From IMG/VR virus record IMGVR_UViG_3300020439_000009, positions 1 to 49,890 of that record: a DNA stretch of 49,890 nucleotides; one strand, given 5' to 3'. The notes beneath the pieces are model-generated. The model was not told the origin of the DNA. It did no database searches and worked only from the letters and a program-made list of their open reading frames with translations. This document shows, piece after piece, positions 2,897 to 18,664 of this stretch. Both the position numbers and the translations under genes were made by a program. The stretch is from a virus. The first letter of the stretch is position 1, and each line of letters starts with the position of its first letter.

Positions 2897-2944
2897 CCAC
2901 TCTCTGAAATAAAATTCCTCAAATTCCTGAGATTGTGCCCCTCT

Positions 2945-3062
2945 TGAGCTGCTTTGTTGCCCTGAGACGGTGAAGGGCAACAAAGCACCTCGTATTACCT
3001 AAATGAAGCCCCTATCGGTATCCAGTGGAACAGATATTGTTATGGCACTACCGATAGAGGCA
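2945..3062 (-). repeat. Tandem hairpins, copy 2
   Basis: Two hairpins in series on the minus strand. The first is CCTATCGGTA/TACCGATAG (about 3006-3062). The second has 13-bp arms GCTTTGTTGCCCT (2951-2963) and its complement (2974-2986), preceded by AGGTAATACGAGG and with loop TCGCCGTCTC-type sequence. It lies between the lipoprotein-like gene and the promoter of the Cys-rich gene. Confidence 0.75.
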
Positions 3063-4368: not shown

Positions 4369-4750
4369 AGTTCGGAAACCTCACACTTGCTTCTGCTGTG
4401 TACAACACCGACATACATGCCAGCCACAACATTGTTTCTCTGTCGGTCAACTCAATTAGATATTCTCGAGCCATTAAATTGCGAATCTCAATTAACCGCA
4501 CAGGCCTCGCGCCGTCGAACTCGAATTCATTTTTCCCGACACCGACGACTATTTCATCACATTCTTGGCAAATTGACTCTGTCCGACGTAATGTGTCGAT
4601 TAAGGTGACATCATTCCAAGAATCCAAATCCTGTAGCTTTTCCTTGAATCTCTTTGACAGGGATTGATAGGTTACGGATTCCACGTCACTTACTTGAGCC
4701 CAAGAGGACTCAAACCACTCGTTCAATTCTGCTTTTTGCTCTTCGTTCAT
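4352..4750 (-). CDS. Hypothetical protein (132 aa)
   Basis: Acidic, largely helical 132-aa product with 'SICQECDEIVVG', a CxxC pair near residue 78. The start is well defined: the AGGAG SD is the 3' edge of hairpin copy 3, so the hairpin sits directly on the ribosome-binding region. No family recognised. Confidence 0.7.
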   Translation of the reverse strand: MNEEQKAELNEWFESSWAQVSDVESVTYQSLSKRFKEKLQDLDSWNDVTLIDTLRRTESICQECDEIVVGVGKNEFEFDGARPVRLIEIRNLMAREYLIELTDRETMLWLACMSVLYTAEASVRFPNYEQEE

Positions 4751-4756
4751 TCTTCA

Positions 4757-4872
4757 CTCCTGAGCCGCTTTGTTCTCGTGAGACGGGCGAACGAGAACAA
4801 AGCGCCTCGTTTTACCCAAACTAATCTCCGAAGCTCCCTGCCGGTGAAAGGATAAGGCCGACAGGGAGCTGG
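4757..4872 (-). repeat. Tandem hairpins, copy 3
   Basis: First hairpin AGCTCCCTGTCGG/CCGGCAGGGAGCT (about 4830-4872). Second has 14-bp arms CGCTTTGTTCTCGT (4766-4779) and complement (4791-4804), loop TTCGCCCGTCTCA on the minus strand, flanked by GGGTAAAACGAGG. The SD of the gene at 4750 begins right after the second stem. Confidence 0.78.
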
Positions 4873-4884
4873 AGAAAACACGTT

Positions 4885-5485
4885 TATAGTCCGCCGACTA
4901 ATACCGCACACGGGACTTGCACCCGTTCCGCAGGGTATGCAGCCTACGGGACACTATGCAACGGCACGACCACCTGTTCTCAAACGGACGCCTAGTTCTC
5001 AACCGAGAGGCCGTCCACAAGTCCTTTGTCACTTCCTCGCTTCTATTTCTTGCCGCCAGCGTACACGGCTTACCATTGCGTCAAAACGTTAAAACCGCAA
5101 TAGGAAAGTTCAAAGCCACAAAGCCACATCGGGCAAGGGTCTGGATTTTATAAGTGTCTTACCACTTCGGTAAATTGGTGACTTGAAGGGGAATCAAACC
5201 CCTAACCGATTGCATGATGATGTTGACCTTTAGCTCGGTCAGTGTATCCGTGAATACCTTTGCTGCTGAGAGGTTCACTTCGTGTCGTCATATCATTGCT
5301 GGGCAATTAAATCCGTCCCAACAAAAAAACATCTTCATGGCTAATCAATCGGCACATCAGTCAAGCCATTGTATTAAAAGTGGTGTGCGGTAGCCACTCC
5401 GCATAAATCCTAAATTGTCCTACCAATCCTGTCACCCGAAGGTGCGACGAAGGCTTACACTGGACACCAGTACGGCTTACGCCGT
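4885..5485 (-). ncRNA. Putative large structured RNA with tRNA-like end (~600 nt)
   Basis: No convincing gene lies in this 600-nt stretch, but the minus strand is packed with helices. At the 5' side are ACGGC-GTAA-GCCGT (5472-5485, GNRA loop), ACTGG-TGT-CCAGT (5459-5471) and CACC-TTCG-GGTG (5433-5444, UUCG loop). A 10-bp stem TACCGCACAC (5383-5392) with GTGTGCGGTA (4902-4911) encloses the rest. Inside lies a 192-nt tRNA-like unit (5176-5367): acceptor GGCTTGA/TCAAGTC, a 12-nt helix with one mismatch (5328-5339 with 5213-5224), GCCGATTG/CAATCGGT, a 17-nt T-arm with 7-nt loop TTTGATT, then A-CCA. Further hairpins occur at 5073-5103 and 4986-5016, and a terminal TAGTC-GGCG-GACTA at 4887-4900. 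GOLLD- or ROOL-class phage RNAs and tmRNA are the nearest known concepts; identity is unproven. Confidence 0.6.
5176..5367 (-). ncRNA. tRNA/tmRNA-like domain within the large RNA
   Basis: Minus-strand 5' GGCTTGA (5361-5367) pairs with TCAAGTC (5180-5186), which is directly preceded by the T-arm AGGGG-TTTGATT-CCCCT (5187-5203). It is directly followed by discriminator A and CCA (5176-5179). D- and anticodon arms are replaced by a long interrupted helix, the tmRNA topology. No mRNA-like tag frame was found, and position 56 of the T-loop is T instead of C. Confidence 0.5.
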
Positions 5486-5878
5486 TTGGGCTTTCTTACT
5501 TCGGCGACCTAGTGCTGACTTTAGCCGCTTGATAAAACCCCTCTTGGATTTCTCTGGTCGGTAGTACAGCATCATCATTCTGCCATCGTAGAATGTTTGA
5601 ACCGTACCGTCGTCAGCTTCCACTGTGTAGAGGAACCGTGAACGGCGACCCTTGATATTACCATAAGCGATAGTTCGCTCACTTAATGGATGCTCGTCCA
5701 AGTCACGAACATCGGTAATTGTGCCAGCATATTGTTGTGCTGACTTAGTGTAGTCGGTGTACTGCATGTTGTTCTTTTCGCTGAACTCATGCTCGATTTC
5801 CTTCATGTAGTTAAATCGAACGTAATCACCAACTTGTAATTCTTTGCTTGTATTCATGTTTTCTCCTAAAAAAAGCAA
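5477..5878 (-). CDS. Hypothetical protein (133 aa; probable start 5857)
   Basis: The open frame begins at 5878, but the T-run/AGGAG leader points to the ATG near 5857 (MNTSKELQVGDYVRFNYMK...), giving about 126 aa. The N-terminus 'LQVGDYVRFNYM' and the 'RRSRFLYTVEADDGTVQTFYDGRMM' segment look like a small SH3-like beta-barrel. The C-terminus is basic (KSKRGFIKRLKSALGRRSKK), suggesting nucleic-acid binding. It is driven by the strong promoter at 5891-5919. Its last codons overlap the first hairpin of the structured RNA, so the RNA may be processed from this transcript. Confidence 0.68.
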   Translation of the reverse strand: MLFLGENMNTSKELQVGDYVRFNYMKEIEHEFSEKNNMQYTDYTKSAQQYAGTITDVRDLDEHPLSERTIAYGNIKGRRSRFLYTVEADDGTVQTFYDGRMMMLYYRPEKSKRGFIKRLKSALGRRSKKAQTA

Positions 5879-6403: not shown

Positions 6404-6430
6404 TGTCCTAGTTCACTTACTCCTTCGTCT

Positions 6431-6530
6431 TGAGCTGCTTTGTTGCCCTGAGACGGCGAAGGGCAACAAAGCACCTCGTATTACCTAATATAAACCCCTA
6501 CCGCCATGGAATGATGGAGCGGCGGCAGGG
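6431..6530 (-). repeat. Tandem hairpins, copy 4
   Basis: First hairpin CCCCTGCCGCC/GGCGGTAGGGG (about 6495-6530). Second has 13-bp arms GCTTTGTTGCCCT (6437-6449) and complement (6460-6472), flanked by AGGTAATACGAGG. Confidence 0.75.
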
Positions 6531-7998: not shown

Positions 7999-8079
7999 TT
8001 TGAAATTTTTCCTTAAAAAATCGGGGAAATTTGGAGCGGCCACAGTGGTCGTGGAGCTTGTCCTCCGTTGTTCCCCTTT

Positions 8080-8160
8080 GAGCTGCTTTGTTGCCCTGAG
8101 ACTGCGAAGGGCAACAAAGCACCTCGTCTTACCTCACCCATGTCAATAGGTCTTATGCCT
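8080..8160 (-). repeat. Intergenic hairpin, copy 5
   Basis: 13-bp arms GCTTTGTTGCCCT (8085-8097) and complement (8108-8120), loop with GCAGTCTC, flank GGTAAGACGAGG. Upstream on the minus strand is CCTATTGACATGG, a mini-hairpin also seen near copies 7 and 8. Confidence 0.75.
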
Positions 8161-10301: not shown

Positions 10302-10310
10302 ATTAAGCCC

Positions 10311-10380
10311 TCAAGCGGCACGCATCACCTGAGACGGGTGAAGGCGATGCTAAGCCGCCTGTCTTACCCGATGTCAACAG
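10311..10380 (-). repeat. Intergenic hairpin, copy 8
   Basis: Arms GCGGCACGCATCACCT (10315-10330) and AGGCGATGCTAAGCCGC (10342-10358), mostly paired with small bulges, loop TTCACCCGTCTCA type, flank GGGTAAGACAGG. CCTGTTGACAT precedes it on the minus strand. The arms are the most diverged of the family yet still pair. Confidence 0.72.
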
Positions 10381-16041: not shown

Positions 16042-16225
16042 TGGTAAATGCGGGTCTACTAGACAAATACAGGCCCACCATATAAAGACTTGGGCAAATG
16101 CTAGTTATCTACGTTACGATGTAGATAACGGCATAACCCTTTGTCGTCATTGTCATGAAAGAGTGACAGGACATGAAAACCACTACGAACAAATATTTAG
16201 TGAGATTGTAAGAAATAAGAAATGA
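15950..16225 (+). CDS. HNH endonuclease (91 aa)
   Basis: Compact HNH domain: 'WRQEIYRRDRFKCQM' (about residues 13-27), 'QAHHIKTWANASYLRYDVDNGITLCRHCHERV' (about 41-72) gives the His-His, Asn and Cys-x2-Cys positions. HNH proteins beside large terminase are known to cooperate with it in cos cleavage in HK97-like phages, and the location just upstream of terL fits. Confidence 0.85.
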   Translation: MKRNYQDPVYKRWRQEIYRRDRFKCQMPTANGKCGSTRQIQAHHIKTWANASYLRYDVDNGITLCRHCHERVTGHENHYEQIFSEIVRNKK

Positions 16226-16707
16226 GCGGGTCTTATACCATCATACAAGACTCCAGAGAAAAGAACGGCTGGACCTTTGCTTCTTACGAGAAATGCAAAG
16301 AACTAAAAACAAGAACTTTATGTACAGGTGACTACACCGCTAGAGGTTTAGAAAAATATCTAGCGATAGAAAGAAAAGCTAGCACCGGAGAACTAAACTT
16401 AAATCTTGGCAAAAAAAGAAAAGCTTTTGAGGCTGAGATGAAGAGATTATCTAAGTTTAGATTTAAGTACATTATATGCGAGTTCTCAATTGAGGATTTA
16501 ATGAAGTTTCCTGAGAATTCTGGCATACCTAAGAAACAGTGGCAGTTCACACGCATGAATGGAAAGTTCATGCTTAAGAAGTTATACGAATACCAAGATC
16601 TATACGATATCCCTACCATATTTTGTGGGGATAGACTTGCCGCAGAGGAAAGAGCGATAAGGATATTCGACGAAGTTTCGGAGATGCTATTACGTGGATC
16701 AAACTAA
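16222..16707 (+). CDS. ERCC4-type nuclease (161 aa)
   Basis: The N-terminal half shows the XPF/ERCC4 nuclease signature: 'QDSREKNGW' (about residues 9-17), 'TGDYTARG' (35-42) and 'IERKAS' (49-54), the GDx..ERKxxxD-type active site. Such enzymes cut branched DNA, useful for clearing junctions before packaging. ATGA overlaps the HNH stop, and its own end overlaps the terL GTG start, so HNH-ERCC4-terL are one coupled block. Confidence 0.83.
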   Translation: MSGSYTIIQDSREKNGWTFASYEKCKELKTRTLCTGDYTARGLEKYLAIERKASTGELNLNLGKKRKAFEAEMKRLSKFRFKYIICEFSIEDLMKFPENSGIPKKQWQFTRMNGKFMLKKLYEYQDLYDIPTIFCGDRLAAEERAIRIFDEVSEMLLRGSN

Positions 16708-18664
16708 AAGAATTGAAGAAGTAATCGAAGAAGCTTGGTTGAACATCGACGTTGATGAGACAAAGCTAATCAATCCTTTTTCTATAGACGCAGATGTTCC
16801 GTTCGAGACAAAACTAACTTGGCTTATGTCTCAACCAGAGTATTTCTCTTTTGTAGCCAAGGAGCTCTTAAATATAGAGATACTTCCACTACAGGCATTA
16901 ATGCTTGAGGAAATGTGGAATCGGAAGTTTCCTATGTTAATAGCCTCTCGTGGTTTTGGTAAATCTTTTATACTCTCTCTTTACTCAATACTTCGCGCAT
17001 TGCTAATGCCGGGTAGAAGAATAGTTGTTGTTGGTGCTGCCTTTAGACAATCTAAAGTTCTCTTTGAATACATGAGTACGATGTGGAGGAATGCCGCTCT
17101 ACTCAGAGACATAGTTGGAACGACAGGAGGCCCAAGAAGTCAGGTAGATATGTGTCGTCTTACAATAGGCGAAAGCACAATCACATGTTTGCCGCTTGGC
17201 GATGGTAGTAAAATTCGTGGTCAAAGAGCCAACGATATTATTGCCGACGAGTTTGCATCTATACCTCGTGACATATTTGAAAATGTTGTTGCTGGTTTTG
17301 CTGCTGTTAGCGCGTCTCCTGTAGAAAATGTAAAGCTAGAAGCCGCAAAGAAGAAAGCCATAGAGCTTGGTACTGAGTTTACTGTAGAAGAAAAGAAGAC
17401 TACTAAGACAAACCAAATCATATTGTCCGGTACTGCCTTTTATGACTTTAATCATTTTGCCGATTACTGGAAAAGATATAAAAGCATAATTGAGAGTAAG
17501 GGCGAAGAAAAGAAACTTAGAGAAGTATTTAAGGGCGAAGTACCTTCTGATTTTAACTGGAAAGACTATAGTGTAATCAGAGTTCCTTTTGAATTGTTAC
17601 CTCATGGATTTATGGACGCTGGGCAAGTGGCAAGGTCTAAGGCAACAGTTCACTCTGGTATTTACCAGATGGAATACGGAGCTTGCTTTACTACAGACAG
17701 TCAGGGATTTTTCAAAAGGTCTTTGATAGAAAGCTGTGTAGTATCTCCAAATAATGTCATAGATTTAAGAAGTGGTCAGGTCAACTTTCAGCCAATGATA
17801 CGAGGCAATCCTCAAGCTAAGTATATATATGGTGTTGACCCAGCTTCCGAAGTTGACAACTTTAGCATTGTTGTTTTAGAGGTGCATGAAGACCACAGAA
17901 GAGTTGTGTATTGCTGGACAACAAACAGACAGCAGCACAAAGAAGAGCTAAAGGCAAAACTAGCAGACGAGGATGATTTCTATTCATACTGCGCTAGAAA
18001 AATTAGAGATCTTATGAGAACCTTCCCTTGTGAGCATATAGCCATGGATGCTCAGGGTGGAGGTATTGCTGTGATGGAAGCACTTCATGACAAAGACAAG
18101 ATTAGAGAAAACGAAGTAGCTATCTGGCCGATTATCGAAGAAGGAAAAGAAAAAGACACAGATGGAAATCCCGGATCGCATATCCTAGAAATGTGCCAAT
18201 TTGCAAAGTATGATTGGCTCGCAGAAGCTAATCATGGACTTAGGAAAGACTTTGAAGACAAAGCTTTACTATTCCCATATTTTGACGCGGCGACCATAGG
18301 CCTAGCAATCTCTGACGACAAACTAAGAGGAAGAAAATACGATACTCTAGAAGATTGCGTGATGGAAATAGAAGAGTTGAAGAATGAGCTTTCTATGATA
18401 GTAGTCACGCAGACAAACTCTGGTCGTGAAAGATGGGACACTCCTGAAGTGAAACTTCCGGGCGGTAGAAAAAATAGAATTCGTAAAGACCGTTATTCAT
18501 CTTTAATAATGGCAAACATGGCCGCTAGGAGTAGACAAAGGGCTCCAGCTCCAGTAAATTATGAGACATATGGCGGATTTGCCAATACAGAAAGTAAGTC
18601 GGATTCGGGTCCTGAATATATGGGTCCTGCTTGGTTTACCGAAGGAATGAAAGATGTTTATTAA
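16694..18664 (+). CDS. terL: Terminase large subunit (656 aa)
   Basis: Starts at GTG 16694 with GGAG 11 nt upstream. The ATPase domain shows a Walker A-type 'SRGFGKS' (residues 85-91) and a Walker B 'DIIADEF' (181-187), with a coupling motif around 'ILSGTAFYD'. The C-terminal RNase H-like nuclease begins at 'YGVDPASEVDNFSIVV' with a second acidic site at 'HIAMDAQGG'. It powers DNA translocation into the prohead and cuts the concatemer. Length and motif order are typical of the T4/HK97 terminase superfamily. Confidence 0.93.
   Translation: MDQTKRIEEVIEEAWLNIDVDETKLINPFSIDADVPFETKLTWLMSQPEYFSFVAKELLNIEILPLQALMLEEMWNRKFPMLIASRGFGKSFILSLYSILRALLMPGRRIVVVGAAFRQSKVLFEYMSTMWRNAALLRDIVGTTGGPRSQVDMCRLTIGESTITCLPLGDGSKIRGQRANDIIADEFASIPRDIFENVVAGFAAVSASPVENVKLEAAKKKAIELGTEFTVEEKKTTKTNQIILSGTAFYDFNHFADYWKRYKSIIESKGEEKKLREVFKGEVPSDFNWKDYSVIRVPFELLPHGFMDAGQVARSKATVHSGIYQMEYGACFTTDSQGFFKRSLIESCVVSPNNVIDLRSGQVNFQPMIRGNPQAKYIYGVDPASEVDNFSIVVLEVHEDHRRVVYCWTTNRQQHKEELKAKLADEDDFYSYCARKIRDLMRTFPCEHIAMDAQGGGIAVMEALHDKDKIRENEVAIWPIIEEGKEKDTDGNPGSHILEMCQFAKYDWLAEANHGLRKDFEDKALLFPYFDAATIGLAISDDKLRGRKYDTLEDCVMEIEELKNELSMIVVTQTNSGRERWDTPEVKLPGGRKNRIRKDRYSSLIMANMAARSRQRAPAPVNYETYGGFANTESKSDSGPEYMGPAWFTEGMKDVY

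Follow-up and report, generated by a model that had tools for sequence, protein, structure and literature searches.

The window analysed here is a 49.9-kb IMG/VR virus record that carries a TerL gene at 16694-18664 and thus represents a tailed phage. Hundreds of relatives of this TerL are present in IMG/VR. The nearest is 99% identical and lies on a 100-kb contig, but its match to the window begins only at ~8.7 kb, so the RNA region described below is outside its coverage. The left arm of the window is a block of small minus-strand genes. On this strand, a gap extends from the stop codon of an upstream ORF (5477) to the point at which the following ORF starts (4750). Inspection of ORFs in 5477-4750 reveals no plausible protein, as a sequence-only reading of the gap had concluded, and indels and differing interiors among homologues argue against short plus-strand ORFs. 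The following features, all on the minus strand, lie in or beside the gap.

5477..5854: upstream small ORF; module A begins 6 nt past its stop, and a homologous ORF precedes module A in L148 too
5379..5471: module A, pseudoknotted RNA of ~90 nt (19-sequence covariation, covariance model, cross-validated profile)
5469-5464/5386-5381: module A P1
5444-5433: module A P2 hairpin
5427-5414: module A P3 hairpin, loop GUAGGA
5402-5399/5390-5387: module A P4
5455-5452 (AGCC) with 5395-5392 (GGCU): module A pseudoknot
5176..5367: module T, tRNA-like RNA that lacks an anticodon arm (homologues with compensatory changes, cross-validated profile)
5367-5361/5186-5180: module T acceptor
5353-5346/5212-5205: module T helix P2, 8 bp
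5241-5224: module T hairpin
5203-5187: module T T-arm
5179-5176: module T encoded ACCA
4887..5175: third segment, no homologue, fold z -1.5
5167-5152 (P3-like), 4949-4928, 4926-4910 (T-arm-like) and 4900-4887: hairpins of the third segment
4832..4870: 13-bp G+C-rich hairpin, putative transcript end (sequence and fold)

A promoter-like sequence (TTGACA-N17-GATAAC) is recognizable by eye ahead of the upstream ORF, and the gap RNA is therefore probably the tail of that ORF's transcript. The hairpin at 4832-4870 is the probable end of this transcript as judged from its bases; it has no U run and was not called in a terminator scan. Many early genes are also preceded by a repeated element consisting of GGGTARGACGAG, a long variable stem, a CGTCTC loop and the stem partner. 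It occurs on the window's minus strand at 4763-4817 and 9213, with related copies at about 2935-3000, 6429-6488, 8070-8150 and 10307-10371, and is found in L148 (41, 1306, 4903, 5967), L011, L122 and L143 as well. The element resembles an H-type pseudoknot (GACG with CGTC), and from copy to copy both strands of its stem change.

Homologues of the gap RNA are not found by simple searches. Queries of the region with blastn yield no match in cultured phages and plasmids and only chance or coding matches in 37 TerL-related records. The pattern ACGGGTGCAAGTCCCGTGTGC has no match, and none of the 24 matches to TGCATA-N-GGTGCAAGTCC has a fitting context on inspection. The flanking protein as sole query has no relatives either, but relatives are recovered when it is aligned with its homologue from G012 and the two-protein alignment is used as query. 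G012 itself has the flanking ORF and no module A. In L148, a matching RNA (75% over about 110 nt, E 4e-12) lies immediately 3' of the same ORF. L149 contains two separate promoter-preceded RNAs, each of which matches one half of the window RNA. In viral contigs, patterns derived from these two loci have 25 and 20 matches, of which several are coding or due to chance; among genome contigs they have one, in a SAR202 MAG. L201, a locus from that MAG, shows no difference from IMG/VR record G055 across the 171 bases compared, and its contig is thus probably viral. L201, L242 and L255 lie on contigs that are binned in the SAR202 MAG (G057) and carry modules A and T, a hint that this phage family has hosts among SAR202 bacteria. 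In L122 (record G006), the place syntenic to the RNA is occupied by a 594-aa ORF (16043-17827) with no Pfam match.

Nineteen sequences define helices P1, P2, P3 and P4 of module A, together with a pseudoknot between GGC in the P4 loop and an upstream GCC. In the alignment, 94% of cells pair and 13 pairs change on both sides. Double-sided changes occupy 62 cells, which are not independent events, compared to 15 in the shuffled expectation, and thus give strong support to the structure. The covariation value is 0.473 versus 0.145 for shuffled alignments, and slid partners give at most 0.09. Little of the counted variation comes from the pseudoknot, as its GCC/GGC core is almost constant and its outer pair, which by eye is C-G, A-U or G-C, is partly misaligned. 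Conserved residues concentrate in loops and unpaired segments. Two capped hairpins noted earlier from the bare sequence are indeed present on this side: CACC-UUCG-GGUG at 5444-5433, and the GNRA hairpin ACGGC-GUAA-GCCGU at the 5' edge, with the stop codon of the upstream ORF inside it.

A covariance model of module A scores the window copy at 86 bits and finds no further match in 1.3 Mb of sequence, mostly from TerL relatives. The same model adds copies in L147, L150 and the SAR202 MAG, and it recovers a shorter variant, class B, at E-values of 1e-5 to 1e-7. A profile from which the window, L148 and L191 were excluded still detects the window copy at E 1.2e-11. E-values from shortened calibrations are rough. 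Copies from the window, L188 and L215 produce only chance-level matches to the 4227 models of Rfam 15. Comparison of sequences shows module A as a recurrent phage RNA with a predicted pseudoknot. Structured phage RNAs as such are already known, and module A is a family without a known relative in the sense that it has no Rfam 15 match, which is not the same as being undescribed; literature searches covered open-licence papers.

Module A is found in about 30 other viral loci. Some copies are embedded in permuted tmRNA genes, in the segment that separates the CCA of one piece from the 5' end of its partner; these genes were identified with Rfam (L177), with ARAGORN (L212, L216) or by sequence (L204, L206, L207). 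The intervening segments of the last three contain module A followed by short frames with a Shine-Dalgarno-like sequence, one of which encodes a small membrane-like peptide. Other copies lie immediately before tRNA genes (L178, L188) or within a tRNA cluster (L199). Still others stand alone, such as those in L147, L150, L202, L209-L211, L214 and L215, and some of these have a promoter-like sequence. The window's TerL (54-74% identity) occurs in 11 of 27 records tested, including those of L148, L149 and class B carriers; the tmRNA and tRNA cases checked are without it. In cultured phages, blastn with homologues of modules A and T finds only tmRNA parts, chance matches or nothing. The tmRNA intervening segments of the cultured phages Melnitz, HTVC008M and Mosig are without module A, an absence that rests on blastn for cultured phages generally and on the model in three genomes.

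Its position beside tRNA, tmRNA or tRNA-like RNAs in many loci, along with conserved residues that gather in unpaired segments and loops, might indicate that module A works in cis, as an element or ribozyme that helps to mature the adjoining tRNA-like RNA, and does not act in trans. This reading is rather unlikely given that some copies (for example, L147, L150, L202 and L209) have no tRNA-like neighbour at the junction and that permuted tmRNAs of cultured relatives manage without module A.

Module T in the window (5367-5176) matches L149 (445-619) and L250. Copies in L255, L201 and L193 were located via a model, bringing the homologues with compensatory changes to five, and a weaker further copy is present in L176's record. 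The acceptor, P2 and T-arm covary in the resulting six sequences, three of which are close to one another, and CCA is kept in five. In the window, the acceptor GGCUUGA/UCAAGUC stacks on the T-arm AGGGG/CCCCU, with ACCA next. The acceptor differs in L201 and L193 (GGCGGGA/UCCCGUC), as do P2 (CUCGUAGG/CCUACGAG in L201) and the T-arm. The stems of these two copies remain paired except for one P2 pair in L193, their T-loops are canonical (UUCGAGU in L201), and both copies have their own promoter-like sequence. Acceptor pair seven is G-G in three of the module T sequences. A profile of three homologues finds the window copy at E 1.3e-5 as its sole other match. The acceptor and P2 retain G-U pairs, which on the opposite strand would read A-C, a sign in favour of the window's minus strand.

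A five-bp anticodon arm with a seven-base loop is absent from module T; the 8-bp helix is followed instead by 92-133 nt (133 nt in the window). ARAGORN calls no tRNA or tmRNA in the window. Comparison shows module T to be a predicted tRNA-like RNA with an acceptor stem, a T-arm and an encoded CCA but no anticodon arm. The sequence-only reading had placed a tRNA-like structure at the end of the RNA. Such a structure exists, but it is internal (5367-5176), and the T-arm-like hairpin near the end (4926-4910) has neither CCA nor a homologue. Most genomes with module T homologues also have module A. The two occur together in one record in the window, L149, L193, L176 and L198, and in one MAG contig in L242/L255 and L201.

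Module T could be the functionless, degenerate remnant of a tmRNA or tRNA, as its acceptor, P2 and T-arm are laid out like the tRNA-like half of tmRNA, and the only match of the Rfam tmRNA model is to the T-arm of L201 (8.2 bits versus a gathering score of 47). However, compensatory changes across diverged copies signify continued selection on the fold, and CCA is retained in five of six copies, which makes a remnant very improbable.

The third segment (5175-4887) has no detectable homologue and no significant excess stability: 15 of 200 shuffles are as stable as the last 291 nt (z -1.5), compared to a z of -2.5 for module T. The hairpin CCGTAGG/CCTGCGG described earlier is present here (4949-4928; loop CTGCATA, 4942-4936), and 5171-5153 partially matches module A (E 0.0075 over 1 kb). 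A resemblance of the segment to manA RNA, seen by eye, could not be supported. In L191 (4934-5130, minus strand) and L148 (about 4590-4790), a divergent manA-like RNA directly follows module A. It matches RF01745 at E 2e-4 and 25 bits, under the gathering score of 55, and its pseudoknot strands co-vary (GACGG/CCGTC, GGAAGG/CCTTCC).

The sequence-only reading described a large, ornate RNA with GOLLD and ROOL as analogues, and on such a view the gap would be one RNA of about 600 nt, closed by long-range contacts and working as a single body. As a whole, the minus strand does fold more stably than shuffled sequence (z -3.5, a value that takes in the terminator-like hairpin; 0 of 20 shuffles equally stable), while the plus strand has a z of -2.0. 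In the window, L148 and L191, moreover, module A is followed by more structured sequence with no protein gene. Yet the proposed closing contacts break P4. Strands of this hairpin (GCGG 5402-5399/CCGC 5390-5387) are needed for both, since UACCGCAC (5392-5385) would pair with GUGCGGUA (4909-4902) in the enclosing stem and UAUGCGG (5405-5399) with CUGCAUA in the loop contact. The homologues contradict both pairings because P4 is conserved and backed by covariation in 19 sequences. The second domain after module A also differs between the window and L148/L191, and modules A and T are separate in other phages. A single body is improbable on these grounds, and the gap is a tandem of small RNA modules. 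What stands of the original description is a structured, non-coding minus-strand RNA with tRNA-like character, supported by folding and by covariation in modules A and T, if not in the segment beyond them. Its placement outside known families also holds, as Rfam models (GOLLD, ROOL, tmRNA and introns among them) have no match at gathering, and those at E<=10 are of chance level. Introns were rejected as its identity since neither group I nor group II models match the window.

The preferred interpretation, which has about an even chance of being correct as a whole, treats the gap as the non-coding 3' portion of an early phage transcript with at least two separate structured RNAs that would be released by tRNA-type processing and serve as trans-acting mimics or decoys. 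A stack of acceptor and T-arm with a terminal CCA is a known minimal kind of RNase P substrate, so module T is likely to be excised and module A released upstream of it. Host RNase P would cut ahead of the module T acceptor stem, and tRNA 3' processing would trim the RNA to CCA. Module A would thereby be freed, as it may be when it lies before a tRNA gene or in a permuted tmRNA's intervening segment, settings in which its flank would likewise undergo tRNA-type processing. It also stands alone, and this route is thus not its only one. The 5' end of tmRNA is made by RNase P (PMC3985003). Support for processing in the gap is confined to homologues of modules A and T, and no other sequence backs it. 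Least certain is the last step, in which both RNAs would engage, in the course of infection, host proteins that handle tRNA or RNA; a trans-acting role in the infected cell is our best guess. It would be a long shot for module A to constitute a new functional class, for example one that is catalytic or modulates RNase P on the adjoining tRNA, tmRNA or mimic and takes over host tRNA metabolism together with module T.

Two structured RNA families absent from Rfam 15 are thus found in uncultured marine phages, and one of them, module A, is lodged in phage tmRNA intervening segments and beside tRNAs. Like GOLLD and ROOL, the gap is a large stretch of phage sequence with structured RNA and no protein gene (PMC12286853). 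In contrast to a continuous body of this kind, its parts are modular and separable, and covariance models of the two families have no match in the window at gathering, the matches seen at E<=10 being unrelated chance ones. The manA RNA (RF01745) is a marine phage RNA with a pseudoknot, like module A (PMC2864571), but module A itself gives no match to the manA model, and neither does the rest of the window. Bacterial Y RNAs with a tRNA-like domain share with module T tRNA mimicry without decoding. They were rejected as an identity because the partner gene, Ro60/TROVE, is absent from all 15 records searched (the window and 14 related ones, most of them fragments), a search whose positive control worked.

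Module T resembles tmRNA (SsrA) in its acceptor stem, T-arm and encoded CCA, and in the long helix that replaces the anticodon stem. It differs in its length of about 160-190 nt and apparently in having no conserved tag frame: on inspection, a frame runs open to TAG in L149 and L250, and this stop is missing from the window and L193. Assignment as a tmRNA by the alanine identity pair fails, as G3-U70 is absent and pair 3-70 is C-G in all six sequences; pair 2-71 is G-U or G-C. Such an anticodon-less tRNA mimic raises the testable question of whether it is cut by RNase P, charged or bound by EF-Tu, and how the phage benefits. Permuted tmRNA occurs in marine phages (PMC9004378), and in some permuted phage tmRNA genes module A is physically part of the tmRNA locus.
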